This document shows, piece by piece, positions 8,028 to 64,000 of a stretch of 64,000 bases of DNA. The stretch's first letter is position 1, and each line of letters begins with the position of its first letter. The stretch is from Chloroflexota bacterium. GTDB lineage: Bacteria; Chloroflexota; Dehalococcoidia; GIF9; UBA5629. The translations under genes and the position numbers were made by a program. The notes beneath the pieces are model-generated. The model ran no database searches. It saw only the letters and a list, made by a program, of their open reading frames with translations, and was not told the origin of the DNA. The stretch is taken from assembly GCA_016865855.1 (NCBI GenBank), contig VGNX01000005.1, forward strand, positions 1 to 64,000. Reading direction: 5' to 3'.

Positions 8028-9259
8028 ACCTCTGGGAAAGCATTATCAGTTCATGGCAAGTCCTACACACTAACAAGATGCGGTCTAGCCTGACCATACT
8101 TGGCATCGTAATCGGCGTCAGTGCCGTCGTCTTCCTGGTGTCCTTCGGCAGAGGGCATGAAGCCAACATTACTGGCATCTTTGAGAGCATGGGCGCTAAC
8201 GCCATCTACATCACCAGCGCAACAAGCATGACGCAAGGAATTTCTGGAGCCACAGCCAGTATCACTCTCGAAGATGCCGAGGCTCTAGCTAATCCCAACC
8301 GTGCCCCATCTGTAGCCTTGGTTGCCCCCATGACTGAAAAACTGGCCAAGGTCGTCTATGGCAATGAAAATGCTACCGTTAACATCATGGGTGCCACTCC
8401 CGACATTGCACAAATCATTAGCTACCCCGTAGCTGAAGGGGAGTTCATTTCTGAGCAGGATGTCAAGAGAGGAGCCAGAGTCGCCGTACTTGGGAGCAAG
8501 ACAGCCACGGACCTTTTCGGCACTGAAGACCCTATAGGTAAAACCATCAGGGTAAGCGGCACCCAGTTCGAGGTTATCGGTGTCCTCGAAAAGAAAGGCG
8601 GCTTCATAGGCTCCGCAGATGATTTCGTCCTCATCCCCCTGACCACAATGCAGTCGAGACTCCTGGGAGAGACATCTGCTAGGGGGCGGCCCATCCAGAC
8701 TATCGCTGTCAAAGCAGTGAGCACCGACCAAATAGATGCCGCCAAAGAGGAGGTTACCTCTATCCTGCGGCAGCGCCATAACATCAGAGAAGGAAAAGAT
8801 GACGATTTTACCATCATCGATATGCAAGAAATACTCAGCAGTATGCGTGAGGTGCTCGGCATAATGCAGGTATTCCTGGGCAGTGTTGGAGCTATTTCCC
8901 TCCTTGTCGGTGGCATCGGCATCATGAACATAATGCTGGTCTCAGTGACTGAACGCACACGGGAAATCGGCATCCGAAAAGCCGTGGGTGCCAAACGCCG
9001 GGATATTCTACGTCAGTTCCTGGTTGAGGCCTCAATGCTTAGTCTGACTGGTGGGATAATCGGCCTTACTATAGCTGCGCTGGGAACCTGGGCGATTACT
9101 GGCGTACAACTTGGACCGTACCCCGTCAAAGCCCCAATGTCACCTGACATCGTAATTATTGCCATCTCAGTGGCAGTCTTTGTAGGGCTAGCTTCTGGCA
9201 TTTACCCCGCCTACAGAGCTGCTGGACTTGACCCAATTGAATCACTACGCCATGAATAA
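8024..9259 (+). CDS. MacB/FtsX-type ABC transporter permease
   Basis: 411 residues with the MacB membrane plan: TM1 just after residue 20 (SSLTILGIVIGVSAVVFLV), a large extracytoplasmic MacB_PCD domain (about residues 45-270), then three TM segments (GSVGAISLLVGGIGIMNIML, LTGGIIGLTIAALGTW, IVIIAISVAVFVGLASGIYP). The cytoplasmic TERTREIGIRKAVGAKRRDI motif is diagnostic of the family, as is the PAYRAAGLDPIESLRHE end. It is the last gene of the regulator-adaptor-ATPase-permease operon and is followed by an inverted repeat. Likely function: export of a hydrophobic compound, peptide or lipoprotein-like cargo; no substrate is evident. Confidence 0.93.
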   Translation: MNLWESIISSWQVLHTNKMRSSLTILGIVIGVSAVVFLVSFGRGHEANITGIFESMGANAIYITSATSMTQGISGATASITLEDAEALANPNRAPSVALVAPMTEKLAKVVYGNENATVNIMGATPDIAQIISYPVAEGEFISEQDVKRGARVAVLGSKTATDLFGTEDPIGKTIRVSGTQFEVIGVLEKKGGFIGSADDFVLIPLTTMQSRLLGETSARGRPIQTIAVKAVSTDQIDAAKEEVTSILRQRHNIREGKDDDFTIIDMQEILSSMREVLGIMQVFLGSVGAISLLVGGIGIMNIMLVSVTERTREIGIRKAVGAKRRDILRQFLVEASMLSLTGGIIGLTIAALGTWAITGVQLGPYPVKAPMSPDIVIIAISVAVFVGLASGIYPAYRAAGLDPIESLRHE

Positions 9260-47658: not shown

Positions 47659-48861
47659 TCAGTATGATTTGGGCAAACCTAATCTAAACTGAGCTATGAT
47701 GCTTTTCTCTACCTCGGCAGTACCAGCAGCGATCATGCTACCAGGGAAACCGAGATAAGCGCCCTGAATGTCTCCCCTGAGTCTGGCCCATTTTGAATCC
47801 GGATCAACTTGAGAGTAGATTCCCAAAATCTCCGCTCCGGAAGTGGCTACACGTCTAATCACGTCGTCGCCCATGATTTTGTTCCTCGAAGATTCGTAGG
47901 CGGGTATTGCACCCTGGGTTACCCTCCAAATAAACTGGTATGCAAACAGTTTTACTATCTCCACGTCTATAGCCATCTCAGCCAACTTGTGGCGAACAGC
48001 AGGAATTTGGTTCAGGAACTTACCTTCGTGCTGAGTCTCGTTGGTATACTTGACCAGGTCCTCCAACAATCTTCTGGAACTTCCATATGCCAGTGGTGCC
48101 ACACTACGTCTTTCGAATGCGAGCGCCTGCATCAGATGATACCATCCCCTATTCTCTTCACCGACCAGATTGGAAGCTGGAACTTTCACATTATCGAAAA
48201 ACACCTCATTAAAGTGATGCCGGCCATAGTAGTTCAATATGGGGTTAACTGTGACTCCTGGAGTTTCCATATCCACAATGAAGAGGCTGAGGCCGCGATG
48301 TTTCTTGCCGGCGGTGGAATCTGTTCTAGTCATAAGCCAGCACCATCGTGAATGCTGAGCTTTGCTGGTCCATACCTTCTGCCCATTAATAATGTAATAG
48401 TCTCCATCTCTTACAGCTCGGGTTTGCAGGTTAGCAAGATCAGAGCCGGCGTTGGGCTCACTATAGCCCGTGCACCAGACACCGTCTTTGTCTCCTGAAG
48501 CAATGAGTGGCAGGTATTTCTGCCTTTGCTCCTCAGTGCCGAACAGCATAAGACAGGGCCCAACCCACTGTGTTCCGCTTATACCCATCCACGCCCCCGG
48601 TATCCCCCAATAAGCTATCTCCATCTCATACACTGTTTGCTCCATAAGGGAAGCGCCCTGACCTCCATACTCCTTCGGCCAACTCATCACCAGCCATCCC
48701 TTCTGGGCTAGCTTCTTAGACATGGATATTTCAAATTCAAAATCTCTGAACTCCTGATCAATCAGATGGGCGCCAACAAAATCCTCAGGCAACTCTTTTT
48801 TGGCGAAATTGGCAATCTCTTCTACTAAAGTTTTCTCTTTCTCACTGAGTCTGAAATCCAT
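47659..48861 (-). CDS. Acyl-CoA dehydrogenase, catalytic-type (base at Glu250)
   Basis: 400 residues from the ATG at 48861 (GAGGAGG six bases upstream). YSEPNAGSDLANLQTRA and INGQKVWTSKAQHSRWCW form the FAD/substrate face. Glu250 in ALAFERRS matches the isovaleryl-CoA dehydrogenase base; the medium-chain position has no Glu (AAGTAEVEKSII). It resembles the two catalytic-type proteins at 24-26 kb. Paired with the following base-less subunit. It would dehydrogenate the CoA thioester at the start of each beta-oxidation cycle; a gap of 224 bases with no visible gene separates it from the SDR upstream. Confidence 0.92.
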   Translation of the reverse strand: MDFRLSEKEKTLVEEIANFAKKELPEDFVGAHLIDQEFRDFEFEISMSKKLAQKGWLVMSWPKEYGGQGASLMEQTVYEMEIAYWGIPGAWMGISGTQWVGPCLMLFGTEEQRQKYLPLIASGDKDGVWCTGYSEPNAGSDLANLQTRAVRDGDYYIINGQKVWTSKAQHSRWCWLMTRTDSTAGKKHRGLSLFIVDMETPGVTVNPILNYYGRHHFNEVFFDNVKVPASNLVGEENRGWYHLMQALAFERRSVAPLAYGSSRRLLEDLVKYTNETQHEGKFLNQIPAVRHKLAEMAIDVEIVKLFAYQFIWRVTQGAIPAYESSRNKIMGDDVIRRVATSGAEILGIYSQVDPDSKWARLRGDIQGAYLGFPGSMIAAGTAEVEKSIIAQFRLGLPKSY

Positions 48862-49085
48862 GCTCAGCCTCCTCAAACTTAGTCAGCTAGAGTGTAGCTC
48901 TATTTTTAGGTTGTCTGCGACAATAAACACGCAAATAAGCAAATCACTATTCGGTATCAGAGGTCAACCTGTGGGAAATAGCCGCTAATACAACTAAACA
49001 TCTACACAAACAGCGATGGAGCCAGTTCCCGTTTACGCAACTGGCAACCCAAGTTTAGCTATCAAGACTCAATATGCTTCTATTT

Positions 49086-50012
49086 TTACGGTTGTGGTGA
49101 TGCCGGATTTACCAGTCCTCTGGCCAGAGTTCTAGGCATGATATCAATCAGTTCGCTCACTGTCCAGATGCCATCCTTAATGATGCTGCTTCTCACCTCC
49201 GGCTCGGAGTAAATCCCTATTCGACCACCACCAACCCAGAATGTATAGCCGTTTATATTTGCTGCCTCGTCTGTAGCCAGGTATACAACCAGAGGTGCTA
49301 TCATCTCTGGGGTCATTTGTTCCACTTCATCTAAAGTTATGGAACCTGTTACAGGACGTAACCCTTGGGCCTTAGCCTTCTCCCAGGCAGCCTTCAGCTC
49401 TGGCGTCAGAGTCAACCTCGTCCCAGCATTAGGGCGGATGGCATTACAAGTTACGCCATATTTGCCCATGTCTCTAGCCACTGTCCTGGTGAAACCCACA
49501 ATTCCCTCTTTGGCAGCACTGTAGTTGGCCTGGCCCATGTTACCTAACCCGGCTGTAGATGAAGTATTTATTATTCTCCCACTTCTCTGCTGCCTGAAAC
49601 AGACACAAGCTGGCTTAGTACAATGGAAATGACCATATAAGTGGACCTTCATGACCAAGTCCCATTCCTCTTCGCTCATATTGAAAATCATGCGGTCTCT
49701 GAGGATGCCAGCATTGTTTACTAGAATGTCAATACGGCCAAAGTTATCGATGGCCGCTTTGATGATGTTTTCCCCACCTTCTGGAGTGGCTACTGAATCG
49801 TAATTGGCAATGGCCTCTCCACCCAGCTTCTTGATCTCCTGAACTACCTCTTCAGCCGGAGCTTTAGAGGTACCGGTGCCATCACCCGCCCCACCGAGGT
49901 CATTAACCACCACTTTCGCGCCCTCAGCGGCCAGGGCCAATGCCTCACCCCTCCCAATACCACGCCCAGCGCCGGTAACTACAGCTGCCTTTCCTTCCAG
50001 CCTCTTTGCCAT
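49086..50012 (-). CDS. Short-chain dehydrogenase, 17beta-HSD4/MFE-2-like (3R-hydroxyacyl-CoA dehydrogenase type)
   Basis: 308 residues. NAD-binding TGAGRGIGRGEA, NDLGG with the following Gly-rich stretch and EAIANYDSVATPEGG are typical of the dehydrogenase part of multifunctional enzyme type 2. NNAG and the catalytic Ser-Tyr-Lys (STAGLGNMGQANYSAAKEG) are present, and a C-terminal extension of about 60 residues (GYTFWVGGGRIGIYSEPEV) is also family-typical. With the MaoC-type hydratase genes of the same operon it makes up a split MFE-2: hydration to an R-hydroxyacyl-CoA and oxidation to a 3-ketoacyl-CoA. AAGGAGG precedes the start. Confidence 0.9.
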   Translation of the reverse strand: MAKRLEGKAAVVTGAGRGIGRGEALALAAEGAKVVVNDLGGAGDGTGTSKAPAEEVVQEIKKLGGEAIANYDSVATPEGGENIIKAAIDNFGRIDILVNNAGILRDRMIFNMSEEEWDLVMKVHLYGHFHCTKPACVCFRQQRSGRIINTSSTAGLGNMGQANYSAAKEGIVGFTRTVARDMGKYGVTCNAIRPNAGTRLTLTPELKAAWEKAKAQGLRPVTGSITLDEVEQMTPEMIAPLVVYLATDEAANINGYTFWVGGGRIGIYSEPEVRSSIIKDGIWTVSELIDIMPRTLARGLVNPASPQP

Positions 50013-50109
50013 TTTTAGGCCTCCTTAATTACTAATTATTGAGTTACCAACTGATGAGTAGCGCTTTGCCAACTAGCTCTCTATACACACTGAGCTAGAA
50101 CAGCAAAAT

Positions 50110-50889
50110 CTACATATACATTCCAGAAGAAACGTTCAGCGTCTGGCCGGTGATAAAGGCAGCATCGTCCGAAGCCAGGAACAGAACAGGTTTGGCAGCA
50201 TCTTCAGGCATCATCGGTTTAACTTGCAGTAGAACCATATCCCTCACCTTCTTGGGGATCCCCACCAGTTCACCACCTACTTCTTCCTGCTGCGCTTCCT
50301 TTTCTCTGGTCAACCGGGTATCAACGAACCCATAAGCGATGACATTGCAAGTAATCCCAAATCTTCCCCATTCCCTGGCTACCGTTTTGGTAAGCCCAAC
50401 GAGACCTGCTTTGGCGGCAGCATAGTTAATCTGCCCGACATTCCCCATCAGGCCAGCCACGGAGGCCACATTGATTATTCTGCCATTATGCCCTTCCTTC
50501 ATCACATATTTTGAAGCAGCCCTGATACAGTTAAATGTCCCTTTTAGACTAATATCAACACATAAGTCCCATTGGGCATCGGTCATTTTATATATCAGAG
50601 CATCCCGGGTAAGTCCAGCATTATTGACCAAAATATCGAGCTTGCCGAATTTTTCTGCTGCCATGTCCATCATCTTTTGGCAATCTTCCGGTTTCGTGAC
50701 ATCACCAGCACAAGTCTCAGCCTTACCACCAGCCGCTCTTATTTCCTTGACCACCTCCTTCAGCGGTGCTTCATCAATGTCACTCACCACAACAGCAGCA
50801 CCCTCCTTAGCAAACAACAGAGCATCCGCTCTGCCTATGCCTCGTGCTGCTCCAGTGATAACTGCTACTTTTCCATCCAACTTTCCCAT
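50110..50889 (-). CDS. Short-chain dehydrogenase/reductase, FabG-like
   Basis: 259 residues. Cofactor loop TGAARGIGRADA, NNAG motif, catalytic Ser and YxxxK (SVAGLMGNVGQINYAAAKAG) and the closing TGQTLNVSSGMYM are all standard SDR features. Asp in VVVSDIDEA after the second strand favours NAD(H). A stretch before the end (REKEAQQEEVGGELVGIPKKVRD) is slightly longer than in FabG. In this operon it probably oxidises a hydroxyl in the CoA substrate (ring or side chain) rather than making fatty acids. Cotranscribed with the other SDR, 97 bases apart. Confidence 0.9.
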   Translation of the reverse strand: MGKLDGKVAVITGAARGIGRADALLFAKEGAAVVVSDIDEAPLKEVVKEIRAAGGKAETCAGDVTKPEDCQKMMDMAAEKFGKLDILVNNAGLTRDALIYKMTDAQWDLCVDISLKGTFNCIRAASKYVMKEGHNGRIINVASVAGLMGNVGQINYAAAKAGLVGLTKTVAREWGRFGITCNVIAYGFVDTRLTREKEAQQEEVGGELVGIPKKVRDMVLLQVKPMMPEDAAKPVLFLASDDAAFITGQTLNVSSGMYM

Positions 50890-51001
50890 TGTATATACTT
50901 ACCTCCTTTATTTATTAGTTTGCTATTAACCCCACAAAACACAGTTTGTCCAGTGTTTCAGGGAAAAAACTTCCTGGAATATCCAGTTCAATAAACCTTG
51001 C

Positions 51002-51472
51002 TTACTTCTTGCCTCGTGACGGTAAGGCAATCAGAGCCGCTCCCGGAGTAGTTTTCTCACCCTTCCCATTCTCCACCCAAATCTCGCACTCAACAAGGTG
51101 CTCACCACCCTCCTCATATTTCTTGGTCACCTTGCCTTTACACCACCACGTTTCGCCATCATGTGGTTCTTCCATCGTTTTCATCTTCCGTGGGTAGTCC
51201 ATACCGCGGTACTGGCAGGACAACTTTTTGAGCACCCCCTGCTCACCAATGCAGTCAGTCATCAGGTGGCCTAACCAGGCGCGTTTAAGAGCACCATGCA
51301 CAATAGGAGCACCCACGCCCATAGCTTTGGCAAAATCGTCTTCGTAATGCAAGGGGTTAAAATCTCCCGAGGCTCCTGCCCACTGAACCAGCATTCTTGT
51401 TGTGGCAATTTTAGCCAATGGAGTTATTTGACTCCCTACTTCAACATCATCATAATAAACTTGTTTAGCCAT
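51002..51472 (-). CDS. MaoC-type (R)-enoyl-CoA hydratase subunit, catalytic half
   Basis: 156 residues, a single hot-dog domain. The hydratase-2 motif with the catalytic Asp and His is present in ASGDFNPLHYEDDFAKAMG, followed by PIVHGALKRAWLG. The partner encoded 17 bases upstream is the non-identical half (FAS1-type N-terminal MaoC domain). Heteromeric hydratases of this kind are known (HadAB, ChsH1-ChsH2). Predicted to hydrate the enoyl-CoA made by the acyl-CoA dehydrogenase pair of this operon. Confidence 0.87.
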   Translation of the reverse strand: MAKQVYYDDVEVGSQITPLAKIATTRMLVQWAGASGDFNPLHYEDDFAKAMGVGAPIVHGALKRAWLGHLMTDCIGEQGVLKKLSCQYRGMDYPRKMKTMEEPHDGETWWCKGKVTKKYEEGGEHLVECEIWVENGKGEKTTPGAALIALPSRGKK

Positions 51473-51489
51473 ATCTCCTCCTCAATTTC

Positions 51490-51963
51490 TTAGAATTGGA
51501 TGAATGTCGATCGGCCCTTGAGAGCCACTTTGCCTTTCTGATTCACAAAAGTGGTCTCGACCGTAGTGAACATAGTCTTGCCCATTCTCGTTTCTCGTTC
51601 AGTTATGCTAGCAATCTTGGCCGTAGCAGTTAGCACATCTCCAGCGCCGATAGGCTCGACGAATTCAAATTCAACACCGCCATCAAGCAATCGAGTCGGT
51701 GCTCCAGCCTTGATTAAGGAGTCAACTAATTTGAAGACAGAAATCCCACCTTTGATTGGCCACCCAATGAAGCCTGGAGGGCAAATCAGCCTGCCATATT
51801 TGTTTTTGCTGGCGTTCTCTATATCGTTGAATAAAGGATTGGGGTCGCCTATAGCCTGCGCATACCTTTGGATTGCCCCTTCTTCAACCTTGAAAGTAAT
51901 CGGCTCTCCAGAAACACCTATTAGTTTTTTCAACTCATCTGTAATTATAGACCCTTCAGCCAT
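51490..51963 (-). CDS. MaoC-type hydratase subunit, N-terminal-half type (FAS1_DH-like)
   Basis: 157 residues, hot-dog fold of the MaoC-dehydratase N-terminal family. It begins with ITFKVEEGAIQRYAQAIGDPNPLFND, has PPGFIGWPI in place of the catalytic-half signature and lacks the Asp-x-Asn-Pro-x-His active-site set. It would form the substrate-binding half of a heteromeric hydratase with the gene just downstream. A second family segment (VEFEFVEPIGAGDVLTATAKI) lies in the middle. It follows the thiolase gene by 29 bases, with AAGGAGG before the start. Confidence 0.85.
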   Translation of the reverse strand: MAEGSIITDELKKLIGVSGEPITFKVEEGAIQRYAQAIGDPNPLFNDIENASKNKYGRLICPPGFIGWPIKGGISVFKLVDSLIKAGAPTRLLDGGVEFEFVEPIGAGDVLTATAKIASITERETRMGKTMFTTVETTFVNQKGKVALKGRSTFIQF

Positions 51964-51992
51964 GCTTCAGCCTCCTTAAAGCTTATTTTTTA

Positions 51993-53195
51993 TCACAATC
52001 CTACTATAGCAACGCTGACTATATTCATAGCCGGGAAGCCACCCATATTATGAGTAAGACCCAGTTTGGGATTCTTTAGCTGGCGCTCTGGCATCTGAGC
52101 TTTGCCCTGCAACTGTTTGTACATCTCATATAACATCCTTAGACCAGAGGCACCAATAGGATGCCCAAAGCACTTCAATCCACCATCGGGCTGGATAGGT
52201 TGCTCGCCATCCAGATTGAAGCGGCCAGCCTCAATGTCCTCCTTAACCTTCCCCCTGGGGCTGAACTGCAAATCCTCCATAGTTACAGCCTCAGTGATGG
52301 AGAAACAGTCGTGTACCTCAGCCATACTTATCTCTTTGCGCGGATTCTTTACACCGGCCTCGTTATAAGCCAGAACCCCAGCACGGTACCCAGTCTCAAC
52401 ATGAGCACCGTCCCACTTCGTATACATCAACTCCTCACCTGAGCTCAAGGCGATCTGGAGCGCCTTGACATACACAGGGTCAGGCCTGAATTTCTTAGCC
52501 ATGTCAGCTCGAGTAACGATAGCTGCTGCCGAACCGTCACTGACTCCACAGCAGTCAAAAAGCCCCAGAGGCCAGGCAATGATAGGGGCGTTAACCACCT
52601 GCTCTTCAGTCACTTCGCGGCGCAAATGTGCCTTCGGGTTCCTAGACCCATTGTAATGGCTTTTGGATGACACTTTGGCCAGCATCCTTTTGCCCTCCTC
52701 CGGGCTGAGGCCGTAGACAGCAAAGTAGCGGGTAGCCATCATGGCAAAACTCCCGGGAGCGGTTAATTTGGGCATTATAAGTGCATTTTTTGTTCCCATA
52801 AGACCAGGACCACCAGGAAGCCCACCATATCCCGTATCTTTGAGTTTTTCTACGCCCAAAGCTAAAGCTATGTCATAAGCCCCTGAGGCCACCGCGTAAC
52901 ATGCACCCCTAAAAGCCTCTGTGGCAGTAGCACAGAAGTTTTCTACCCTAGTTACCGGGATAAAAGGTAACTTCAGCGCCAATGCCAATGATGTAGCCCC
53001 CTTCCCTACACTCTGCTCTTCAAAATGCACACCAAACCAGGCTGCATTGATATCTTTTTTCTCTATACCTGCGTCCTCGATACATTCTTGGAAGGCGTCG
53101 ACCATCAAATCCTCAGCGCCTTTATTCCACAACTCCCCAAACTTCGTACAACCCATCCCTATGATAGCTACCTTGTCTTTAATACCTTCTGCCAT
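51993..53195 (-). CDS. Thiolase (SCP2/SCPx type) with intact catalytic residues
   Basis: 400 residues. Unlike the two thiolase-fold proteins at 16-18 kb it keeps Cys88 in RVENFCATATEAF, the GHPIGASG motif with its His and the LTHNMGG segment. It would split 3-ketoacyl-CoA with CoA, the last step of beta-oxidation. Sterol-carrier-type thiolases act on branched or bulky acyl chains, which fits the MFE-2-like SDR and the MaoC pair around it. It sits 35 bases after the HMG-CoA-synthase-like gene. Confidence 0.92.
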   Translation of the reverse strand: MAEGIKDKVAIIGMGCTKFGELWNKGAEDLMVDAFQECIEDAGIEKKDINAAWFGVHFEEQSVGKGATSLALALKLPFIPVTRVENFCATATEAFRGACYAVASGAYDIALALGVEKLKDTGYGGLPGGPGLMGTKNALIMPKLTAPGSFAMMATRYFAVYGLSPEEGKRMLAKVSSKSHYNGSRNPKAHLRREVTEEQVVNAPIIAWPLGLFDCCGVSDGSAAAIVTRADMAKKFRPDPVYVKALQIALSSGEELMYTKWDGAHVETGYRAGVLAYNEAGVKNPRKEISMAEVHDCFSITEAVTMEDLQFSPRGKVKEDIEAGRFNLDGEQPIQPDGGLKCFGHPIGASGLRMLYEMYKQLQGKAQMPERQLKNPKLGLTHNMGGFPAMNIVSVAIVGL

Positions 53196-53230
53196 TTTTC
53201 TCCTCCGTAGTTTATTTTAAATTCGGTACT

Positions 53231-54673
53231 CTAGGCACGTATCGGCGTTGCCTTCCAAGCATAGCCATAAACACCAGTGGGTTCATCCACATATCTTCTG
53301 CGGAAGGCCATCTCCACCGGCATGCCCACTTTAACTGAATCAAGGTCACAGTCCGTAAAGTCAAACCAGAATCTGCCTCCTCCTTCAAAATCGACGAATC
53401 CGTAGATTGCCGGCGGGTCAATGCTGGCAGCCAAATTATCACCAGTATAGGTAAAAACGACACCCTTCTTGTCTGAAAAACGGTAGTCTTCCATCTGGTC
53501 AACGGCTCCACAATCAGGATTTACACACACTCTCTGGAACGGATATTGTGGCGTGCCACACTTTTTGCATTTCGAGCCACAAAGCGACAAAATTGCCTTC
53601 CGCTCTCTGAAAAGCGCGGACATCGGAGTGCGAAGACTCATTTCGCCACGCATGCCCATATCCATCGGAGCCAAATTGCGGAAGGCAAGATACTTCTCAT
53701 AGCTAGCGAGCTCCTTTTTTAAGGCCAAATGCTTTTTCACCCCACGCCTATCCCCAACCTTCTTGATGTTTTCAGTCACGTGGAAGAACAGAGCATCGCT
53801 ACCATTACCAAAGCTAGCGACCAAAATCTTGTCTCCAGGCTTGGCATCTTCAAGTGAAGCCACCAACATCATCAAAGGCGAAGCCGCCCCCGTATCTCCC
53901 ACCTTGTCGAGCAACGTATCCTGAATCTGACCCGGCTCAGCACCTAATCGTTTGAGTATGGCAGCATGTTCTCTAACATAAATACCCGGAAATATGATTT
54001 TGGCAAAGTCCTTGATGTTCAAATTATATTTCTTCAGCAGCCCGGAAATCGCTTCGGGTATCATTTTGGCATAACCTTCATCCCGAATAAATCTGTCTTC
54101 CCAGGCGTGTTCAAATTCTTCTGCACTTGTTTTCCAGCGGTCAGGGAAATCATAGGAAACAGAATAGGAACCCTCGAAAGTAGCAATCACCCCATCATCC
54201 GCCAGCAACAAGGCCGCCGCACCATCACCATACAGATGTTCCTGAGGGCCACCAGGCTTGCTTAACCGACAGTCAGAGGCACAGACCAGGATATTGCTTG
54301 AAGTGCCTCCCTTTACAGCATCAAAAGCAGAGACGAGAGCACTGGTACCTGCCTTGCTAGAGCCGATGAAGTCAGCAGTTCTCATATTGGACTGAAGGTC
54401 GAGAGCAACAGCTACTATTGCCGAATTTTGTCTCAGCATATACGGCTGACTGGTAGTAGCAAGATATAAGCCATCTATCTCTTCTCTTTTCAGGCCATTT
54501 ATGCAATCAATCCCGGCAGCCACCGCCATGCTGAGAGTATCCTCATCATGATTGGCAACTGACTTCTCACCCGGTGTGGGAAATGTACCCAGAAAACCTA
54601 CCGCTCCGAAGATAGTATTGTGGTTCATTCGATACCGTGGGATGTAAGCGCCGTATGATTTAATACCTACCAT
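53231..54673 (-). CDS. HMG-CoA-synthase-like protein fused to DUF35, catalytic residues missing
   Basis: 480 residues. Residues 1-310 have the HMG-CoA synthase/KAS-III-like thiolase fold (GIKSYGAYIPRYRMN start, GDGAAALLLADDG, GDTGAASPLMML). The C-terminal part is a DUF35 unit: zinc ribbon with Cys369, 372, 383, 388 and an OB-fold. Known synthases use Glu, Cys and His; here the Glu position of the SESxPY motif is Thr74 (ATTSQPY), and the Cys before KAGT is Ser106 (GSSKAGT). It is thus not an HMG-CoA synthase. By analogy with Ltp2-DUF35 it may cleave a hydroxyacyl-CoA or hold intermediates. It is the first gene of the beta-oxidation operon. Confidence 0.85.
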   Translation of the reverse strand: MVGIKSYGAYIPRYRMNHNTIFGAVGFLGTFPTPGEKSVANHDEDTLSMAVAAGIDCINGLKREEIDGLYLATTSQPYMLRQNSAIVAVALDLQSNMRTADFIGSSKAGTSALVSAFDAVKGGTSSNILVCASDCRLSKPGGPQEHLYGDGAAALLLADDGVIATFEGSYSVSYDFPDRWKTSAEEFEHAWEDRFIRDEGYAKMIPEAISGLLKKYNLNIKDFAKIIFPGIYVREHAAILKRLGAEPGQIQDTLLDKVGDTGAASPLMMLVASLEDAKPGDKILVASFGNGSDALFFHVTENIKKVGDRRGVKKHLALKKELASYEKYLAFRNLAPMDMGMRGEMSLRTPMSALFRERKAILSLCGSKCKKCGTPQYPFQRVCVNPDCGAVDQMEDYRFSDKKGVVFTYTGDNLAASIDPPAIYGFVDFEGGGRFWFDFTDCDLDSVKVGMPVEMAFRRRYVDEPTGVYGYAWKATPIRA

Positions 54674-54870: not shown

Positions 54871-54899
54871 TTGACAAATAAGACCAATCATTTTACAAT
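54871..54899 (+). promoter_or_regulatory. Promoter of the MarR/Fe-S locus
   Basis: TTGACA at 54871-54876 and TACAAT at 54894-54899, spacing 17: a strong sigma70-type promoter. The last base of the -10 is also the first base of the palindromic operator, so a bound regulator would block RNA polymerase. Confidence 0.72.
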
Positions 54900-55399: not shown

Positions 55400-56341
55400 A
55401 TGAAAAAAACTAAATTGTGCGAATTTTTAGGAATCGAGCACCCCATCATTCTGGGCGCAATGGGAGGTATCTCCACTGGCAAATTAGCCGCAGCTGTATC
55501 TAACGCAGGCGCCCTTGGTTCAGTAGCCACAGCCTTTATCTCCGTTGAAGAGGCTCGGCGTGAAATTCAAGAATGCAAACGCCTCACTGCTAAACCATTT
55601 GCGGTCAATTGCCCGCTTTTCAGGCCAGATGTCACTGAAATGCTGGATGCCATTGTGGAAGAGGGTGTCAGTATAATCTCCACATCAGCAGGCAGCCCAG
55701 ACAGATGGACAGAAAAAATCAAAGGCTCAGGAGCAAAATGGCTGCACGTGGTATCTAATGTAAGAGGCGCAGTAAGGGCAGCCGCTGCTGGAGTGGATGT
55801 AGTCATCGCTGAAGGTACCGAATCAGGGGGGATTGCCTCCAGAGACGAAATCACAACTATGGTGCTAATACCCCAGGTTGTAGACGCAGTGAAAGTGCCA
55901 GTCGTGGCAGCAGGCGGCATAGCTGATGCTCGAGGGTTTCTGGCTGCTTTGGCATTAGGAGCTCAGGGAGTTCAAATGGGTACTGCTTTTCTGGCTACCA
56001 AAGAATGCGACCGGGTAAGCGATACTTACAAACAAGTGCTGCTTAACGCCTCAGATATTGCTACTGGGCTAGCTACTCGTAAGGCATATCCTGTAAGGAT
56101 AATCAAGAACAAACTCTTCGACACCCTTCAGCACCTGGATGAAGAAGGCAAGTCACGGGAGGAGATACAAATGATGCTCGCTCCAAAGATGATGAACCTG
56201 TCCCAGGAGAACGACCCTGAGAACGGACTCTACGTTGCAGGACAGGTAGCAGGGCTGATCAATGAGATAAAGACGGTGAAGGAACTGATTGAAGGCATCG
56301 TCACAGAGTCTGAGAGGCTTTATCGTAGCCTGGCAGGTTAG
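55400..56341 (+). CDS. FMN-dependent nitronate monooxygenase / FabK-like oxidoreductase
   Basis: 313 residues from the ATG at 55400 with AAGGAGG six bases upstream. TIM-barrel of the 2-nitropropane dioxygenase family: HPIILGAMGGISTGKLAAAVSNAGALG start, flavin-phosphate segments EGTESGGI and AAGGIADARGFLAAL, and GAQGVQMGTAFLAT. Members include nitronate monooxygenases, FabK enoyl reductases and many uncharacterised enzymes beside acyl-CoA catabolism genes. Here the context (MarR, Fe-S proteins, acyl-CoA ligase) favours a reductase or dehydrogenase acting on a CoA thioester. Position 36 bases after the regulator suggests cotranscription. Confidence 0.88.
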   Translation: MKKTKLCEFLGIEHPIILGAMGGISTGKLAAAVSNAGALGSVATAFISVEEARREIQECKRLTAKPFAVNCPLFRPDVTEMLDAIVEEGVSIISTSAGSPDRWTEKIKGSGAKWLHVVSNVRGAVRAAAAGVDVVIAEGTESGGIASRDEITTMVLIPQVVDAVKVPVVAAGGIADARGFLAALALGAQGVQMGTAFLATKECDRVSDTYKQVLLNASDIATGLATRKAYPVRIIKNKLFDTLQHLDEEGKSREEIQMMLAPKMMNLSQENDPENGLYVAGQVAGLINEIKTVKELIEGIVTESERLYRSLAG

Positions 56342-56413: not shown

Positions 56414-57628
56414 ATGTCCAAGCCAAGAAAGCCAAAGAAGGAGATTACCGTAGCCGAGCAAGAAGTTTACCGACGTTTTATGGACTGGCTGAAGCAAACG
56501 TGGTACGGTCTGCCTGAGGCGGATGAACTCATGCCCTTAATTATAGCTACCTATACCCCAGAAGAGGCCTCCCTGCTAACTGGTATGCCCTTTTCGGGCA
56601 GAAATCTCGAGGAACTGGCTGAAATAAAACAGATGGACCCTGCCGAACTACGCAAACGGCTTGATGCGATGGCTAGAAAGGGCCTCGTCTTTCGCACCGT
56701 TAGAGGCGACACTGTCCGCTACAGCCTCAATGATTCAATGTTCGTGACTTTTCGGAGCACCTTCTGGCCCGGACGCACCAACGAGCGAAGCAAGGCTATC
56801 GCACCTGTTGCTAATCAATACTATTACCACGGTGCCTGGGACCAGTATAAGCACACACACCTGAAGGGCCTACGGGCATTGCCCATTACAGCGACGATAG
56901 AGGACACCCGCCAAATTTTGCCCTATGAAGAAGTGGTCAAGGTACTGAAGCAGCACGACTATTTTACTGTTTCCATCTGCCCATGCAAGCACCGCAAAAA
57001 CATCGACCCGAACTTTCCCAATTGTAAATATCCCACCGAGGTCTGCCTCCACTTTGGCAGGCTCGGCCACTATATTGTCGAAAATGGTTTAGGTCGTGAA
57101 ATCACCCGCCAGGAGACCGAGGAAATTCTGCGCCAGTGCGCTGAAGCCGGTTTGGTACACGGAGTCTCAAACATGCAGGAGGGGCCAGACACCATCTGCA
57201 ATTGCGACCCATGCTGCTGCATTATGCTCGAGGCGTTCCACAAACTGAAGCATGCAGAGGGTATGACCCCGTCCAACTACCGGGTCCGCACTAACCGTGA
57301 GACTTGCATTGGCTGCGGCCTCTGTGTCAAGCGGTGCCCCATGGAAGCGCTGCATCTCGAAGACTTACCAGAGGCCAAAGGCAGGATTACTGTGGTAGTC
57401 GAGACCGGAAGCAGCAAGAAAGAGCTGAAAAACAAAAGTGGCAAGGTGTCGGTGGCCAATACCGACATATGTATCGGATGTGGTGTTTGCGCCTACAAAT
57501 GCCCCACAAAGTCGCTGCTCCTTGAGCGTAGGGAGATTATCAAACATCCGCCGAAGGATGTGCGCGAATATATGACGTTACTCACAGCAGATTTTGCCGC
57601 TGCCCATGTCCAACGAGAAAGGGGGTAA
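56414..57628 (+). CDS. Winged-helix / Cys-rich / 2x[4Fe-4S] ferredoxin protein, paralogue 1
   Basis: 404 residues, uncharacterised. About residues 45-110 look like a winged helix (YTPEEASLLTGMPF, LRKRLDAMARKGLVF, RGDTVRYSLND). The middle has a Cys cluster CPCKH with further Cys in FPNCKYPTEVCLHFG (about 188-210) and CNCDPCCC (about 262-269). The C-terminus is a two-cluster ferredoxin, CIGCGLCVKRCP and CIGCGVCAYKCP (about 298-365). So it should bind at least two [4Fe-4S] clusters and perhaps a third metal centre. AAAGGAGG before the ATG. Two paralogues follow. Possible roles: electron carrier to a reductase, or a redox-sensing regulator; no function is known to me. Confidence 0.85.
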   Translation: MSKPRKPKKEITVAEQEVYRRFMDWLKQTWYGLPEADELMPLIIATYTPEEASLLTGMPFSGRNLEELAEIKQMDPAELRKRLDAMARKGLVFRTVRGDTVRYSLNDSMFVTFRSTFWPGRTNERSKAIAPVANQYYYHGAWDQYKHTHLKGLRALPITATIEDTRQILPYEEVVKVLKQHDYFTVSICPCKHRKNIDPNFPNCKYPTEVCLHFGRLGHYIVENGLGREITRQETEEILRQCAEAGLVHGVSNMQEGPDTICNCDPCCCIMLEAFHKLKHAEGMTPSNYRVRTNRETCIGCGLCVKRCPMEALHLEDLPEAKGRITVVVETGSSKKELKNKSGKVSVANTDICIGCGVCAYKCPTKSLLLERREIIKHPPKDVREYMTLLTADFAAAHVQRERG

Positions 57629-57729
57629 AGCATATATTTATGTATGTACGCTAGGTGAATAAAGCCTTACACCATTGATTTGAAGCTGACAAACCAAACA
57701 ATAATAACTAAATAAAGGAGGAAAATGAT

Positions 57730-58908
57730 ATGTCTGAGCAGGAGATTTACAAGCGTTTTATCGACTGGATGAAACAAACGTGGTACGGTCTGCCCGAGGC
57801 AGATGAAATGGAACCGTTCATCATGGCCCTCTACACACCTGAAGAGGCATCATTATTGACAGGCATGCCTTTTGGGGGTAAAAGTCTCTAGGAGCTTGCC
57901 CAGATGAAACAGACGGACCCCGCTCAGTTGAGCCAGCAATTAGATGCATTAGCCAAAAAAGGCTTCGTCTTCCGCGTTGTCAAAGGTGATACCGTGCGCT
58001 ACAGTCTAAACGATGCCTTTTTCACTCAGCGCACTACTTTCTGGCCCGGGCGCAAAGACGAGCGCAGCAAAACCCTGGCACCTCTGGCGAACCAATACTA
58101 TTATCACGGCTTCTTTGACCCGTATGCCGAGGTGAATACAAAAGGACTAAGGGCACTGCCCATCGAAGGCACCATCGAGGACACGCGGGAAATATTGCCC
58201 TACGAAGAAGTCACCAAAGTGCTGGATTCCCAAGATTATTTCACTGTCACAACCTGCCCTTGCAAACATCGAAAAAACCTCGACCCTGATTTTCCGAATT
58301 GCGAGCACCCAACTGAGGTTTGCCTGCACTTTGGCAGGCTTGGCCACTATATTGTCGAAAATGGTCTGGGACGTGAAATCACCCGTCGCGAAGCCGAAGA
58401 TATACTACACCAATGTGCTGAAGTAGGGCTAGTTCACGGAATAGCTAACCAGCAGGAAGGTGTAGATACCATCTGCAACTGCTGCAAATGCTGCTGCATA
58501 TGGTTCGAGGCATTCTACAAATTAAAACATTCTATGAGCATGAGTCCGTCAAACTACCACATCCGCATCAACTCGCAGACTTGCATCGGTTGCGGTTTAT
58601 GTGTCAAGCGCTGCCCCATGGAAGCATTGCATCTGGAGGATCTCCCAGAAGCCAAGGGCAGAGTTACCGTAGTGGCATCAGAGAAAGAGGGTAAGAAGGA
58701 GCTTAAGAACAAGATTGGCAAGGTATCGGTAGTCAACCCTGACTTCTGTATCGGCTGTGGCGTGTGCGCCTATAAATGCCAGACAAAGTCGCTCGTGCTG
58801 GAACGCCGTGAAGTTATCCAATATCCGCCGCAGACCGGACGTGACTATGTTATGCAGTTCATCGCTGAACGACAGGCTGCCCAAGCTCATCCTGAACAGC
58901 AGAGATAA
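57730..58908 (+). pseudogene. Winged-helix / Cys-rich / ferredoxin protein, paralogue 2, interrupted by an amber codon
   Basis: The ATG at 57730 has AAAGGAGG upstream and the frame matches paralogue 1 from its residue 15 on (QEIYKRFIDWMKQTWYGLP). Codon 54 is TAG (57889-57891), where paralogue 1 has a Glu codon (GRNLEELAEI versus GKSL-stop-ELAQM). The same frame then runs on without change to 58908, through FFTQRTTFWPGR, CPCKH, CNCCKCCC and both ferredoxin motifs. All Cys are kept. Reading could restart at the ATG at 57904, giving 334 residues without the first part of the winged helix. Either a fresh nonsense mutation, a sequencing error, or a true split; intact rest suggests it is recent. 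Confidence 0.75.
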
Positions 58909-58992
58909 CGTCAAGAGAGCAGAATGAAGGTGAACAAGGAGTAAATATAGCGGTACGATTAATAACAGAATAATGGATTAAGGAAGGCAAGG

Positions 58993-60051
58993 ATGAACAT
59001 AGATATTTATGAAAAACTAGCCAATGCTCTGGATTTACTGCCCACAGGTTATCCCCTGACCAAGTCAGGGACTGAGCTACAAATCCTTAGGAAACTATTT
59101 TCACCAGAAGAAGCGTCTGTAGCAAGCAACATGACCGGCACTAGTGAGACGGTAGAGACCATAGCAAAACGAGCCAGCCTCTCACAAGAAGAAGCTGAAC
59201 GAAGACTTGAGGCTATGCTACGCAGGGATATAATCTGGAGTTCTGCAAAGGATGGGGTGCGAAAATTCCGATTGGCTCCGTATGTAGTCGGTTTCTATGA
59301 ACAACAATCAGAGACACTAGACCATGAATTGGCTCACCTCTTCGAGCGCTACTGGATGGAAGGAGGTGGTGAAGGGATAATGCGCTATGGTCCCGATACA
59401 CACCGCGTCGACCCAGCACACCGAGCGCTTGAGAAAACCGAGGTAATCCTTCCCTACAATGATGTTAGAAAATTGATGTTGCAAGCAAAATCTTTCCAGG
59501 TACGCAACTGCATCTGCAGGAGACAGCAGGAGTTACTAGACGCTAAGAAATGCGATTTCCCGGTAAGAAACTGCCTTTCCTTCTTCCCGGTGGAACTGCC
59601 TGATGGACCGAACACCATCACACAGGAAGAAGCTCTCAAGCTGCTAGACGAAGCTGAAGAAATAGGCATGGTTCACTGCGTAGCCAATCAGCAAAATGGG
59701 CTTTACTGGGTATGCAACTGCTGCGGATGCTGCTGCGCTGTGCTAAGGGGAATCATCGAATTCGGCATCGAGAATTCGAGTGTGACGGCAAATTACTATG
59801 CAGTCATTGACCCCAAAATATGCAAGGGCTGTAGAACATGTGAGGACCGCTGCCACATGAATGCGGTCTCTGTAAACGATATATCAACAATTGACCGGGC
59901 AAAGTGCATCGGTTGTGGTGTCTGCGTCACCGGATGTCCCAACGAAGCTTTAAGTCTTGAGCTGAGACCTGATGCTGAAATAATAACCCCACCTGATAAC
60001 TACAAGGCATGGGAACAAGCACGGCTACACAATCGTGGACTACTGAAATAA
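58993..60051 (+). CDS. Winged-helix / Cys-rich / 2x[4Fe-4S] ferredoxin protein, paralogue 3 (divergent)
   Basis: 352 residues. Same plan as the two preceding genes but more distant: winged helix (FSPEEASVASNMTG, RLEAMLRRDIIWS), middle Cys set NCICRRQQEL with Cys in AKKCDFPVRNCLSFF and CNCCGCCC, and a terminal ferredoxin with CKGCRTCEDRCHMNA and CIGCGVCVTGCPNEA. In the first cluster His follows the last Cys instead of Pro. The spacing of the Cys set is retained, so the metal site seems essential. It is 85 bases after paralogue 2 and 12 before a QueG-like gene, with which it is likely cotranscribed. Confidence 0.85.
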   Translation: MNIDIYEKLANALDLLPTGYPLTKSGTELQILRKLFSPEEASVASNMTGTSETVETIAKRASLSQEEAERRLEAMLRRDIIWSSAKDGVRKFRLAPYVVGFYEQQSETLDHELAHLFERYWMEGGGEGIMRYGPDTHRVDPAHRALEKTEVILPYNDVRKLMLQAKSFQVRNCICRRQQELLDAKKCDFPVRNCLSFFPVELPDGPNTITQEEALKLLDEAEEIGMVHCVANQQNGLYWVCNCCGCCCAVLRGIIEFGIENSSVTANYYAVIDPKICKGCRTCEDRCHMNAVSVNDISTIDRAKCIGCGVCVTGCPNEALSLELRPDAEIITPPDNYKAWEQARLHNRGLLK

Positions 60052-60063
60052 GGTGAAACTGCT

Positions 60064-61197
60064 ATGTCACTAAGCGAAGACATAAAGGATTTTGCCCTGG
60101 ATTTGGGTTACAGTAAAGTTGGCATTACTACTGCAGAAAGTTTTCCTGACTATATCGCTGAACTCAACTCGCGACGTGACATGTACGGCTGGTACATCGA
60201 CAGCACCTTTCAGCCGCTCATAGGCGCTGACCCAAAGAGCGCCATGACAACGGCCAAATCCATCATCGCGCTAGTACTTGATATCTCCAAGGAGTCTTTT
60301 CCCGAAAAACTCCTGGGCAAGATAGGCCGTCATTACTTAGCAAGGTGCTATCTCACCCCACGCCACCGTATCAACGGGGCACGACGGCAGTTGATGCGGG
60401 AATTCCTGGAGGAAAATGGCTGTCACGTAGCCGAGCGTTTGGTCCTCCCAGAGCGGCTAGCTGCAGCCCGGGCTGGAATTGTCACCTATGGTAAAAATAC
60501 CTTCGTCTTCGCTGATGGTATAGGGTCATTCATCCTCATTACCGCATTTGTAGTCGATGTTGAACTTGACTACGATGAACCTACCCTAAAAGTCAAGTGC
60601 CCACCTAAATGCACTGCTTGCATCGAAGCCTGCCCCACGGGGTCACTCTACCAATCTATGAAGATGGACCCCCGCCGTTGCATCGCCTTCAATACCTTTA
60701 TGGCTCAAGATAATTACCCCGGAGGTGTCACCAGCTACATACCACCTGACATAAGGGAGAAGATGGGCACTTGGATTCACGGCTGCGATATCTGTCAAGA
60801 AGTATGCCCCCGAACCCAGAAGAGGTTAAAGGCAAAGCTGCCCCAGAACGAGTTTTTAGCCAAAATGGCGCAAGACTTTGAGCTCACCAGGCTTTTGAAC
60901 CTGACTGATGAGTACTACATCAAGAGAGTTCAACCGCTGATGTATAACTATATCAGGCACAAGAAATACTTCCAGAGAAACGCCGCAATTGCCCTGGGAA
61001 ATATTGGCGACCCCGCTTACATCCCTGACCTCGCCCAGGCGATACAGGATCCGGAAGAGCTAGTGCGCGGCTATGCTGCCTGGGCTCTGGGTAAAATCGG
61101 AGGCAACCAGGCAAGGCAGATACTGGAGGCCAGCCTGACACATGAAACATCCGAGTTTGCCAAGAAAGAAACTGAAGCCGCCCTGGCTGGTATCTAA
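60064..61197 (+). CDS. QueG-like Fe-S protein with HEAT repeats
   Basis: 377 residues. The order matches epoxyqueuosine reductase: cobalamin-site region (AARAGIVTYGKNTFVF), a first [4Fe-4S] set (KCPPKCTACIEACPTG), RRCIAFNTF and a second set (HGCDICQEVCPRT), then HEAT-like repeats (NAAIALGNIGDPAYIPDL, YAAWALGKIGGNQA). But the DSxPxxE stretch with the catalytic Asp of QueG reads ERLVLPERL, so that Asp seems missing. It may be a B12-binding reductase with a different job, related in fold to reductive dehalogenases. It follows the divergent ferredoxin-like gene by 12 bases. Confidence 0.85.
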   Translation: MSLSEDIKDFALDLGYSKVGITTAESFPDYIAELNSRRDMYGWYIDSTFQPLIGADPKSAMTTAKSIIALVLDISKESFPEKLLGKIGRHYLARCYLTPRHRINGARRQLMREFLEENGCHVAERLVLPERLAAARAGIVTYGKNTFVFADGIGSFILITAFVVDVELDYDEPTLKVKCPPKCTACIEACPTGSLYQSMKMDPRRCIAFNTFMAQDNYPGGVTSYIPPDIREKMGTWIHGCDICQEVCPRTQKRLKAKLPQNEFLAKMAQDFELTRLLNLTDEYYIKRVQPLMYNYIRHKKYFQRNAAIALGNIGDPAYIPDLAQAIQDPEELVRGYAAWALGKIGGNQARQILEASLTHETSEFAKKETEAALAGI

Positions 61198-61292: not shown

Positions 61293-62186
61293 ATGGTTGT
61301 TACTAGCATTACTAGGCTGACACGTGAGATAAAGGAACTCGCGAGGGACAAAGGAGCTGAGATCTAGTCGGAATCGCACCGGTGAGCCGCTTTCAAGAAG
61401 CTCCAGAGAACCGCTACCCCAGGTTTTATATTCCACAAGCCCAAACTTGTAGTGGTGGTAGCTATGCGAGTGCCCCTGGGTATCTTACGCAGCGTAGCTC
61501 GCAGGAGGGAAGTTTATACATACCAAGGTTATGCATTGAAAACCATTAACACCGAACTTGACATGATAGCCTTCCAACTGGCCAATTTCATTGAGAGGCA
61601 GGGCTATGAAGCCTGCCCTATACCGGCTAATGCCCCCAGAGACCCCTTGTTCCGCTGAGGGATCAGCCATCGCCATGCTGCCGTGGCTGCTGGGATGGGC
61701 GAGTTGGGTCAACACCAACTCCTGCTCACCCCGGAACTAGGTGGCAGACAAAAACTGGTGAGCATCATCACTTATGCCCCTCTAGAGCCTGATCCGCTGG
61801 TCAAATACCAGATCTGTGACCACTGCAACATGTGTGTCAACATCTGCCCTACCCAGGCAATAGCCGCAGACAGATTTGATACCTTCCACATGGACGGGAT
61901 GGAATTGACAACTGGGCATTTGACTAAGTGGCGATGCATCTTCGGCTGCGGTGGTTTAGTCAGCAAGGGAACCTTCGCCATGACAGAATTCACCTTGCCG
62001 AAGAGCCGACCAAGCACCGAGGAGATGTTCAGTTACCTTGCCCGGAAACACCCAGCTCAGGCTTATTTAGAGCGCGAGGTCGGCGCACAGCCAGCCTGGT
62101 ACGCCAAATGCTATGCTGTCTGTGCCGTTCACCTCTACAAAAAGAAAGACGACAAGTCACTTTCCTCTGAAGAAAAAGACAATTAA
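61293..62186 (+). pseudogene. Second QueG-like Fe-S protein, disrupted
   Basis: The ATG at 61293 has AAGGAGG upstream and gives TSITRLTREIKELARDKGAE, then a stop. The natural continuation (DLVGIAPVSRFQEAPENRYP) is read one frame over from 61361, and the first frame resumes near 61450 with VVAMRVPLGILRS. A TGA at 61656-61658 then cuts the chain inside DPLFR-stop-GISHRHAAVAAGMGELGQ. The rest runs to 62186 and holds CDHCNMCVNICPT and a Cys-rich tail. Two compensating shifts plus a stop indicate a decayed gene, unless the assembly is poor here. It is of a different QueG-like subgroup from the intact neighbour. Confidence 0.75.
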
Positions 62187-62411: not shown

Positions 62412-64000
62412 ATGAACATTGGCAGTCTCATCGAAGACAACATTAAGAGGTTCGGTGAATATGAAAGTGTCTACTTTGAAGGCAAATGGTATACCAACGC
62501 TGAGGCAAACCGCAACGCCAATCGACTGGGCAACGCGCTCAAAGCGCTCGGCATCAGCAAAGGGGATCGAGTAATAGTACAAATGCCCAATAGCCCTCCT
62601 GTATTTTCAGCCTTCCCGGCCATATATAAGATAGGTGGTATAGTCGTGCCACTGAATCCATTGCTGAGGCCCGACCAAGCCTCCTACATATACCGCGACT
62701 GCGGAGCAAAAGCTATCCTGACCAGTTCCGATTACCTGGGCTGGATCAAGGATGCACAGAGCCGTGCGCCAAGCTTGAAACACCTCATATTAACTGACCG
62801 AGACGATGTCCCTGACACCGTTTCCTATCGTGAACTATTGTCAAGCAGTTCAGATAAACTTGCAATAGAAGAGACCAACAATGATGACGTTGCCGCCCTA
62901 CTATATACCGCCGGTACCACAGGGCAGCCTAAAGGAGTAATGCACACCCACTATTCCCTCTACATCAATGCCTTGTCATTCTATGAATACATTATGGTTC
63001 ACCGCTCCGTGACATTGCGCTTGACTAGCCGCGCCCTAAACGCCAAAACACTCCAATCCAATGAAGTCACTCAACAAGTTTCTGGCATCAATCGAGCGAT
63101 GGTGAGCCTGGGTGTGCTGCCTCTATCGCACTCCTATGGCATCGCCTTCAGTAATACAGGTTCCTTCGTAGGCGGAAAGGCAGTCGTGCTGAAGTGGTGG
63201 AACGTTGAGGAGGCATTGAAGGCCATTCAAACTTTCCGGGTTAATCACATAGCGGCAGTTCCCACCATGTACATCCAGATGCTGGAGTTTCCCGACCTGG
63301 ACAAATACGACCTAAGTTCACTTGAAGAGTGTAACTCGGGTGGGGCAGCACTCCCTGTAGAAGTAGCCTTAAGGTGGAAACAAAAAGTAGGTGTCGATAT
63401 TAGAGAAGGTTGGGGCCTAACTGAATCGGGAGCCACTACCACAGGTCAGCCGGCTGACCTCTCCCCCAGATACGGCTCCGTTGGCAAATGCTTGCTTAAA
63501 TGCAATACCATAAAGGTTTTCGATGATAGTGGTCGCGAGCTTCCACCTGGGCAGCGAGGGGAAATCGTAGTCAAAGGCCCTACATTGATGAAAGGCTACT
63601 GGAATCTGCCTGAGGATACAGCGCAGACTATCAAGAACGGCTGGCTCCATACCGGCGACATAGGCTATGTGGATGAGGAAGGTTATCTTTACATCACCGA
63701 CCGCAAAAAGGATATAATCATTCGAGGAGGAGAGAATGTATCACCTAGAGAAGTGGAGGAGGTTCTTTATCAACATCCCAAAGTTGTCGAGGCAGGAGTT
63801 ATCGGCATACCTGATAAGGTCTATGGCGAAGAGATAAAAGCTTTCGTGGTTCTTAAACCAGGAGAGCAAGCCAGCGAAGAAGAAATAGTCGCCTTTTGCA
63901 AGGAACGCTTGCCCACCTTCAAGATACCGAAAAAAGTGCAATTTATAGAGTCATTGCCCAAGAACCTTTTGGGCAAGGTGCTAAGAGCAGAATTGCGCAA
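62412..64000 (+). CDS. AMP-dependent acyl-CoA ligase (3' end beyond the window)
   Basis: At least 529 residues from the ATG at 62412 (GAAGGGAG upstream); the frame is open to the right edge. ATP-binding loop YTAGTTGQPKGVM, A5 motif GWGLTESG, hinge HTGDIGYVDEEGYLYITDR, lid KDIIIRGGENVSPREVEE and the catalytic Lys in PKNLLGKVLRAEL at the very end, so only a few residues are missing. About 40 extra residues (HRSVTLRLTSRALNAK and beyond) stand between the ATP loop and the VLPLSHSYG motif. It is 226 bases after the decayed QueG-like gene; the gap shows nothing else. Third ligase in the window. Confidence 0.92.
   Translation, partial: MNIGSLIEDNIKRFGEYESVYFEGKWYTNAEANRNANRLGNALKALGISKGDRVIVQMPNSPPVFSAFPAIYKIGGIVVPLNPLLRPDQASYIYRDCGAKAILTSSDYLGWIKDAQSRAPSLKHLILTDRDDVPDTVSYRELLSSSSDKLAIEETNNDDVAALLYTAGTTGQPKGVMHTHYSLYINALSFYEYIMVHRSVTLRLTSRALNAKTLQSNEVTQQVSGINRAMVSLGVLPLSHSYGIAFSNTGSFVGGKAVVLKWWNVEEALKAIQTFRVNHIAAVPTMYIQMLEFPDLDKYDLSSLEECNSGGAALPVEVALRWKQKVGVDIREGWGLTESGATTTGQPADLSPRYGSVGKCLLKCNTIKVFDDSGRELPPGQRGEIVVKGPTLMKGYWNLPEDTAQTIKNGWLHTGDIGYVDEEGYLYITDRKKDIIIRGGENVSPREVEEVLYQHPKVVEAGVIGIPDKVYGEEIKAFVVLKPGEQASEEEIVAFCKERLPTFKIPKKVQFIESLPKNLLGKVLRAELR

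Follow-up and report, generated by a model that had tools for sequence, protein, structure and literature searches.

Three genes for a modular iron-sulphur protein family

The 64,000-nt stretch of DNA analysed here (the window) comes from contig 5 of a Chloroflexota genome of ~2.0 Mb in 84 contigs (~91% complete), and it carries three consecutive genes whose products combine a winged helix, a cysteine-rich middle domain and two [4Fe-4S] cluster motifs (Table 1). A first-pass annotation had grouped them as one family on the strength of this architecture and of its CPC/CIC, FPNC/KKC and CNCxxCCC cysteine sets. Both observations hold: the three domains and all three cysteine sets are present in every copy, with Fer4 scoring over the Pfam cut-off. 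Copies 1 and 2 have the CPC/FPNC version and copy 3 the CIC/KKC version, and the cluster reads CNCDPCCC in copy 1, CNCCKCCC in copy 2 and CNCCGCCC in copy 3. In copy 1 the winged helix spans residues ~39-106, the cysteine-rich middle domain ~150-286 and the two [4Fe-4S] motifs 288-370; one cysteine of its CNCC motif has been lost to an aspartate at position 265. Copy 3 is only ~26% identical to copy 1.

Both terminal modules of these proteins are known. In the AlphaFold2 model of copy 1, which carries no cofactors, a winged helix is followed by an alpha/beta middle domain and then by a 2[4Fe-4S] ferredoxin domain; the predicted local distance difference test (pLDDT) score is 94 and the predicted template modelling (pTM) score 0.91. 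The last domain, with its two CxxCxxCxxxC motifs and C-terminal ferredoxin fold, is like those of 2[4Fe-4S] ferredoxins and polyferredoxins (Fer4; FwdF, MvhB, the HdrA C-terminus, RnfB), but these lack the winged helix and the CxC...CNCCxCCC domain, and the match is limited to residues ~288-370. Residues ~39-106 share the fold of ArsR/SmtB/MarR winged helices (3cuo, SmtB, NolR, HlyU), whereas in this family the module is fused to Fe-S domains and its DNA binding is only putative. With copy 1 as the query, Foldseek matched winged helices of ArsR type as well as ferredoxins, and no match had E <= 0.001. For the copies, no Pfam helix-turn-helix model reached its cut-off, and Rrf2/IscR, FNR and WhiB models were absent from the Pfam matches of all three.

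Neither the middle domain, with the cysteine pattern CxC-x12-C-x6-C ... CNCCxCCC, nor its combination with the other two modules is described in any library or paper searched. Modelled alone, it reached a pLDDT of 84, and its best fold matches (E 1.5 in the PDB, 0.25 among viral proteins) were not meaningful. The middle domains of 105 members gave isolated single-member matches to Pfam and NCBIfam, none credible, and nothing among PDB sequences but one helix that repeatedly matched designed pentatricopeptide (PPR) repeats; in a profile search with the whole alignment, matches were confined to the ferredoxin part. For the three copies and the 105 middle domains, Pfam yielded no CCG model of the CCG/HdrB noncubane type, and neither Pfam nor NCBIfam yielded the 2-hydroxyglutaryl-CoA dehydratase D-component expected of a double-cubane protein (BcrB/BcrC, HgdB). 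No description of the family was found in the literature under the terms tried. These profile and structure searches agree with the first-pass annotation, which knew of no described function for this architecture.

The family itself is widespread in anaerobes, spanning Chloroflexota, Desulfobacterota, Firmicutes and Asgard archaea. The source genome has further members on contigs 2, 9, 20, 50 and 56; an in-frame TGA considered for the contig-9 paralog proved not to be within the gene, the stop lying upstream of its start. Family matches at E <= 1e-20 occur in 47 of 100 related genomes. Relatives are encoded at 446 candidate loci of the named genome collection, and the best 80 of these include Chloroflexota, Deltaproteobacteria, Syntrophomonas, Desulfosporosinus, Clostridium, Paenibacillus and Loki-, Thor- and Jordarchaeota. 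Plasmid records match in only 3 of 72,556 cases, from Acetoanaerobium and Cetobacterium. Strict anaerobes hold the family by the hundreds, often with many copies per genome, and the annotated relatives found carry only names such as '4Fe-4S binding protein'.

Across an alignment of 122 members, 13 cysteines are absolutely invariant. Six of these lie in the middle domain (C189, C191, C211, C262, C264 and C269) and seven are ferredoxin cysteines, the eighth of which, C353, is kept in 121. Less strictly conserved are C204 (116/122), C265 (118/122) and C267 (113/122), along with G246, N253 and N263 (117-118 of 122). As judged from the alignment, this set of conserved cysteines is far beyond chance. 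The winged helix is kept by 121 members, and sister proteins of 271-295 aa retain the six-cysteine core and the ferredoxins and have no winged helix. Two paralogs stand beside CooC/ArsA- or MinD-like ATPases (L020, 6024-9197; L019, 5775-9763); they also adjoin members of a shorter sister family, of 278 aa, in which the winged helix is absent and the cysteine set smaller.

Copy 2 required reannotation. Its true start is ATG 57730, preceded by a perfect AGGAGG, while the list of open reading frames (ORFs) had given 57904-58908. The frame contains a TAG at 57889-57891, within the winged helix, where copy 1 reads GAG, and is otherwise open through 58908. A pyrrolysine reading of this codon was rejected: in the ~91% complete source genome PylS gave no match over the cut-off and only weak aminoacyl-tRNA-synthetase-like matches, and the TAG is therefore either a genuine nonsense codon or an error of assembly. 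The TAG sits in an AGGAG stretch ahead of ATG 57904, so translation could restart there, giving a predicted product that lacks the N-terminal half of the winged helix.

Such a lesion, together with the lost cysteine of copy 1 and a second QueG-like gene that is a pseudogene, might mark copies 1-3 as partly decaying relics with little function in the source genome. We consider this very improbable. The ratio of nonsynonymous to synonymous substitution rates (dN/dS) is ~0.07-0.13 across all copies, copy 2 included, which is under purifying selection (~0.07-0.09); copies 1 and 2 have intact Shine-Dalgarno sites and the operator described below is conserved; and a sequence error in this metagenome-assembled genome (MAG) could account for the copy 2 stop.

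Neighbouring genes and their recurrence

The family genes lie within a co-oriented cluster that faces a divergent acyl-CoA operon (Table 1).

Table 1. Genes and regulatory features around the family genes of the window
Feature	Position	Strand	Basis
Divergent acyl-CoA operon	47659..54673	-	divergent position kept in L051, L052, L055
Divergent sigma-70-like promoter	54739-54711	-	promoter scan of intergenic region
Sigma-70-like promoter TTGACA-17-TACAAT, MarR operon	54871..54899	+	11/12 matches
Candidate MarR operator ATGTGCACAA-AATAA-TTGTGCACAA	54898..54922	.	overlaps start of MarR transcript
MarR-family regulator, 140 aa	54942..55364	+	PF01047 61 bits, cut-off 24.6
FabK/nitronate-monooxygenase-like flavin mononucleotide (FMN) oxidoreductase	55400..56341	+	PF03060 227 bits; top PDB matches are FabK
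Family copy 1, 404 aa, intact	56414..57628	+	ORF list; Fer4 over Pfam cut-off; AlphaFold2 model
Family copy 2, TAG-interrupted	57730..58908	+	homologous frame; dN/dS ~0.07-0.09 vs paralog and orthologs
Family copy 3, 352 aa, intact	58993..60051	+	retains all nine Cys of the middle domain
QueG-like protein, two [4Fe-4S] motifs and HEAT repeats	60064..61197	+	TIGR00276 168 bits; full-length alignment to QueG 5d08
Pseudogene, second QueG/reductive-dehalogenase-like protein	61293..62186	+	two frameshifts and one stop
AMP-forming acyl-CoA ligase	62412..64000	+	PF00501 290 bits; beside family gene also in L051, L052

The neighbours that the first-pass annotation had named are largely as described. 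The regulator is a MarR protein, the flavoprotein is FabK/nitronate monooxygenase (NMO)-like, and the facing operon, read earlier as one for beta-oxidation, encodes an acyl-CoA dehydrogenase, two short-chain dehydrogenases/reductases, MaoC and FAS1-like dehydratases, a thiolase and a ketoacyl-synthase/OB-fold protein. Of the genes for QueG-like proteins, which it had called B12-type, the first is intact; the second is a pseudogene here but intact in G003, a genome of the same genus, and its intact version in L051 (5679-6560) encodes 293 aa.

Two start sites were revised. MarR begins at ATG 54942, and in relatives it begins at MYDARKH; GTG 54900, the start in the ORF list, is too early and falls within the candidate operator. 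The FabK/NMO-like ORF is open from 55361, with ATG 55400 as its likely start. This protein is similar to FabK/NMO enzymes along its whole length but scores below the FabK cut-off (TIGR03151, 298 vs 453 bits), making it a paralog. Likewise, the intact QueG-like protein aligns end to end with QueG, eight cluster cysteines included, but falls short of the epoxyqueuosine reductase cut-off of 200 bits and, when aligned with the B. subtilis enzyme, differs around the active-site aspartate of QueG (Asp-130 in S. thermophilus QueG; PMC4646009), part of that segment being missing.

The first-pass annotation had proposed a survey of MarR, FabK-like and QueG-like partners, and the partnership does recur in other genera and on deltaproteobacterial contigs. 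A cassette of MarR, an optional FabK-like gene, a family gene and a QueG-like gene is found in the same genus and family as the source genome; G003, G015 and G012 retain the window arrangement, which is reduced in G083, G072 and G020, the last from the same family. Among the more distant recurrences, which include deltaproteobacterial contigs, the order is MarR-QueG-like-NMO-family in L070 and L076, and a Desulfosporosinus locus (L082) reads MarR-nitroreductase-old yellow enzyme (OYE)-family. In the named set, four QueG-like genes lie <=1.5 kb from a family gene and none farther away. OYE, molybdopterin, NMO and nitroreductase proteins are among the redox enzymes encoded by co-oriented neighbours.

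In a different subfamily, HypB lies directly beside the family gene on the same strand in eight loci, with HypA as well in two. This link makes a role in maturation possible for part of the family: the cysteine-rich domain might bind or insert a metal centre, or reactivate the corrinoid cofactors of neighbouring enzymes, and a connection to nickel-enzyme maturation is possible. The QueG/RdhA-like partners would suit such a factor, as would the CooC/ArsA-like ATPase beside one paralog of the source genome and the MinD-like ATPase near another. The HypAB-linked genes, however, belong to that other subfamily, no NTPase partner accompanies the subfamily of the window, and ordinary ferredoxin domains fit electron transfer; we consider maturation or reductive activation unlikely, if worth keeping in view. 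HypB and HypA together adjoin family genes in L074 (3858-5993) and L080 (10019-12278), from Dehalococcoidia and Syntrophothermus. At a further locus, in a Desulfosudis oleivorans MAG (L097, 9180-12810), a family gene is followed by a gene for a 243-aa protein partly similar to CdhC, the acetyl-CoA synthase beta subunit.

A conserved candidate operator and a probable MarR regulon

The -10 box of the MarR promoter is directly followed by a candidate operator with the consensus double palindrome WTGTGCACAA-N5-WTGTGCACAA. This promoter and the divergent one are the joint-best of the intergenic scan, in which the total match count was not above that of shuffles. Four relatives retain the candidate operator ahead of MarR, and TTGTATACAA-type variants of it stand there in more distant ones. 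The exact TTGTGCACAA occurs twice in the 2.0-Mb genome, once at the MarR promoter and once 40 nt upstream of the contig-50 family gene, where it lies behind promoter-like sequence and is accompanied by a second, degenerate site at the identical 15-bp spacing. This distant gene, with its MarR-type double operator directly upstream, occupies L018 11167-12268; next to its ortholog in G003 (L157) comes an acyl-CoA ligase gene.

We searched 20 genomes for the operator with up to 3 mismatches, using a reversed pattern as the control. Five sites had <=2 mismatches, and each of them precedes MarR or a family gene. In G003 and G012 the ortholog of the distant family gene has the same site, and in G014 a site lies between divergent MarR and family genes. 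The reversed-pattern control was nearly empty, and several sites in other positions, with 3 mismatches, look fortuitous. Operator enrichment upstream of the fetched genes is biased, as some of these loci were fetched via the pattern; the genome-wide search is unbiased. From these sites, at least some family genes very probably belong to the regulon of the window MarR, whose direct binding to the operator we infer. A shared operator at the operon and at a distant family gene would explain their co-regulation.

That the family genes look like MarR targets argues against their products being regulators in their own right. The first-pass annotation had raised redox-responsive regulators as its second option. 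In such a reading the winged helix would bind DNA and the Fe-S and cysteine-rich domains would sense redox state or iron. The resemblance of the N-terminal fold to ArsR/SmtB-type winged helices in the fold search, and the near-universal retention of this module, speak for a redox- or metal-responsive regulator. Set against them are the separate MarR with its conserved operator, the sister proteins that keep the cysteine core and ferredoxins without a winged helix, and the break in copy 2 inside that very module. The recognition helix is neutral on average, but by net charge over the whole winged-helix domain, the level at which the numbers can be used, and then only roughly, true MarR controls are also near neutral, so this comparison does not discriminate. 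The proposal is thereby weakened, and we regard it as quite improbable.

Electron transfer as the proposed role, and history of the copies

The other option of the first-pass annotation, electron delivery to a reductase, is the reading best supported by the domains and partners. We give about an even chance to the view that the family comprises soluble electron-transfer proteins for FMN and corrinoid-type reductases, under MarR control, in anaerobic acyl-CoA metabolism. The two ferredoxin-type [4Fe-4S] clusters of each protein would link it to the general reductant, and the cysteine-rich middle domain probably holds another, specific metal centre. Low-potential electrons would pass to or from the FabK/NMO-like and QueG/RdhA-like partners, flavin and corrinoid-type enzymes that would spend them in acyl-CoA metabolism, and the winged helix probably serves as a docking or dimerisation module. 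MarR would sense a metabolite, perhaps an acid or a CoA thioester, and release the operon and at least one distant family gene, so that the carrier is made alongside the reductases at times of demand for the acyl-CoA pathway.

Several points weigh against electron transfer. The family is known from genes and a predicted structure, from which we infer the carrier role. The flavoprotein neighbours vary by lineage, so that a single fixed partner is not established, and most family genes sit outside recognised partner clusters. The eight HypA/HypB-linked loci suggest metal-centre maturation over plain electron transfer, and a ferredoxin-type carrier has no obvious need of a winged helix or of an extra domain with 6-9 cysteines.

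A more far-reaching version of the electron-transfer proposal, which we find doubtful, makes the middle domain a new metal-cluster fold, with a noncubane or double cluster beside the two [4Fe-4S] clusters, and the family a general injector of low-potential electrons, or an activator, that serves FMN, corrinoid, Mo/W and perhaps Ni enzymes in anaerobic bacteria and Asgard archaea. If the middle domain does hold an unusual cluster, it would join the short list of known cellular supplies of very-low-potential electrons. The conserved MarR regulon and the recurring partners offer a concrete route towards the function of the family.

The three tandem copies noted by the first-pass annotation are true of the source genome, and relatives carry one or two; a tandem triple as a conserved unit is not borne out. 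One family copy is present at the locus in G003, G015, G012, G083 and G072; the single-copy ortholog in L051 spans 7828-9078. The G020 locus has a pair, of copy-2 and copy-3 type, in which the copy 3 ortholog is 73% identical to that of the window and adjoins the copy-2 type gene. Between copies 1 and 2, identity is 71% and synonymous divergence (dS) is saturated, and the two group with different relatives (copy 1 with G083/G072, copy 2 with G020), which rules out a recent tandem duplication; by these comparisons they are old paralogs. Against G003, dS is ~1.9 for the family genes at 56414-58908 vs 0.3-0.8 for the flanking MarR, FabK-like, thiolase and QueG-like genes, and the family genes therefore look to have been exchanged or differentially lost within an otherwise conserved cassette.

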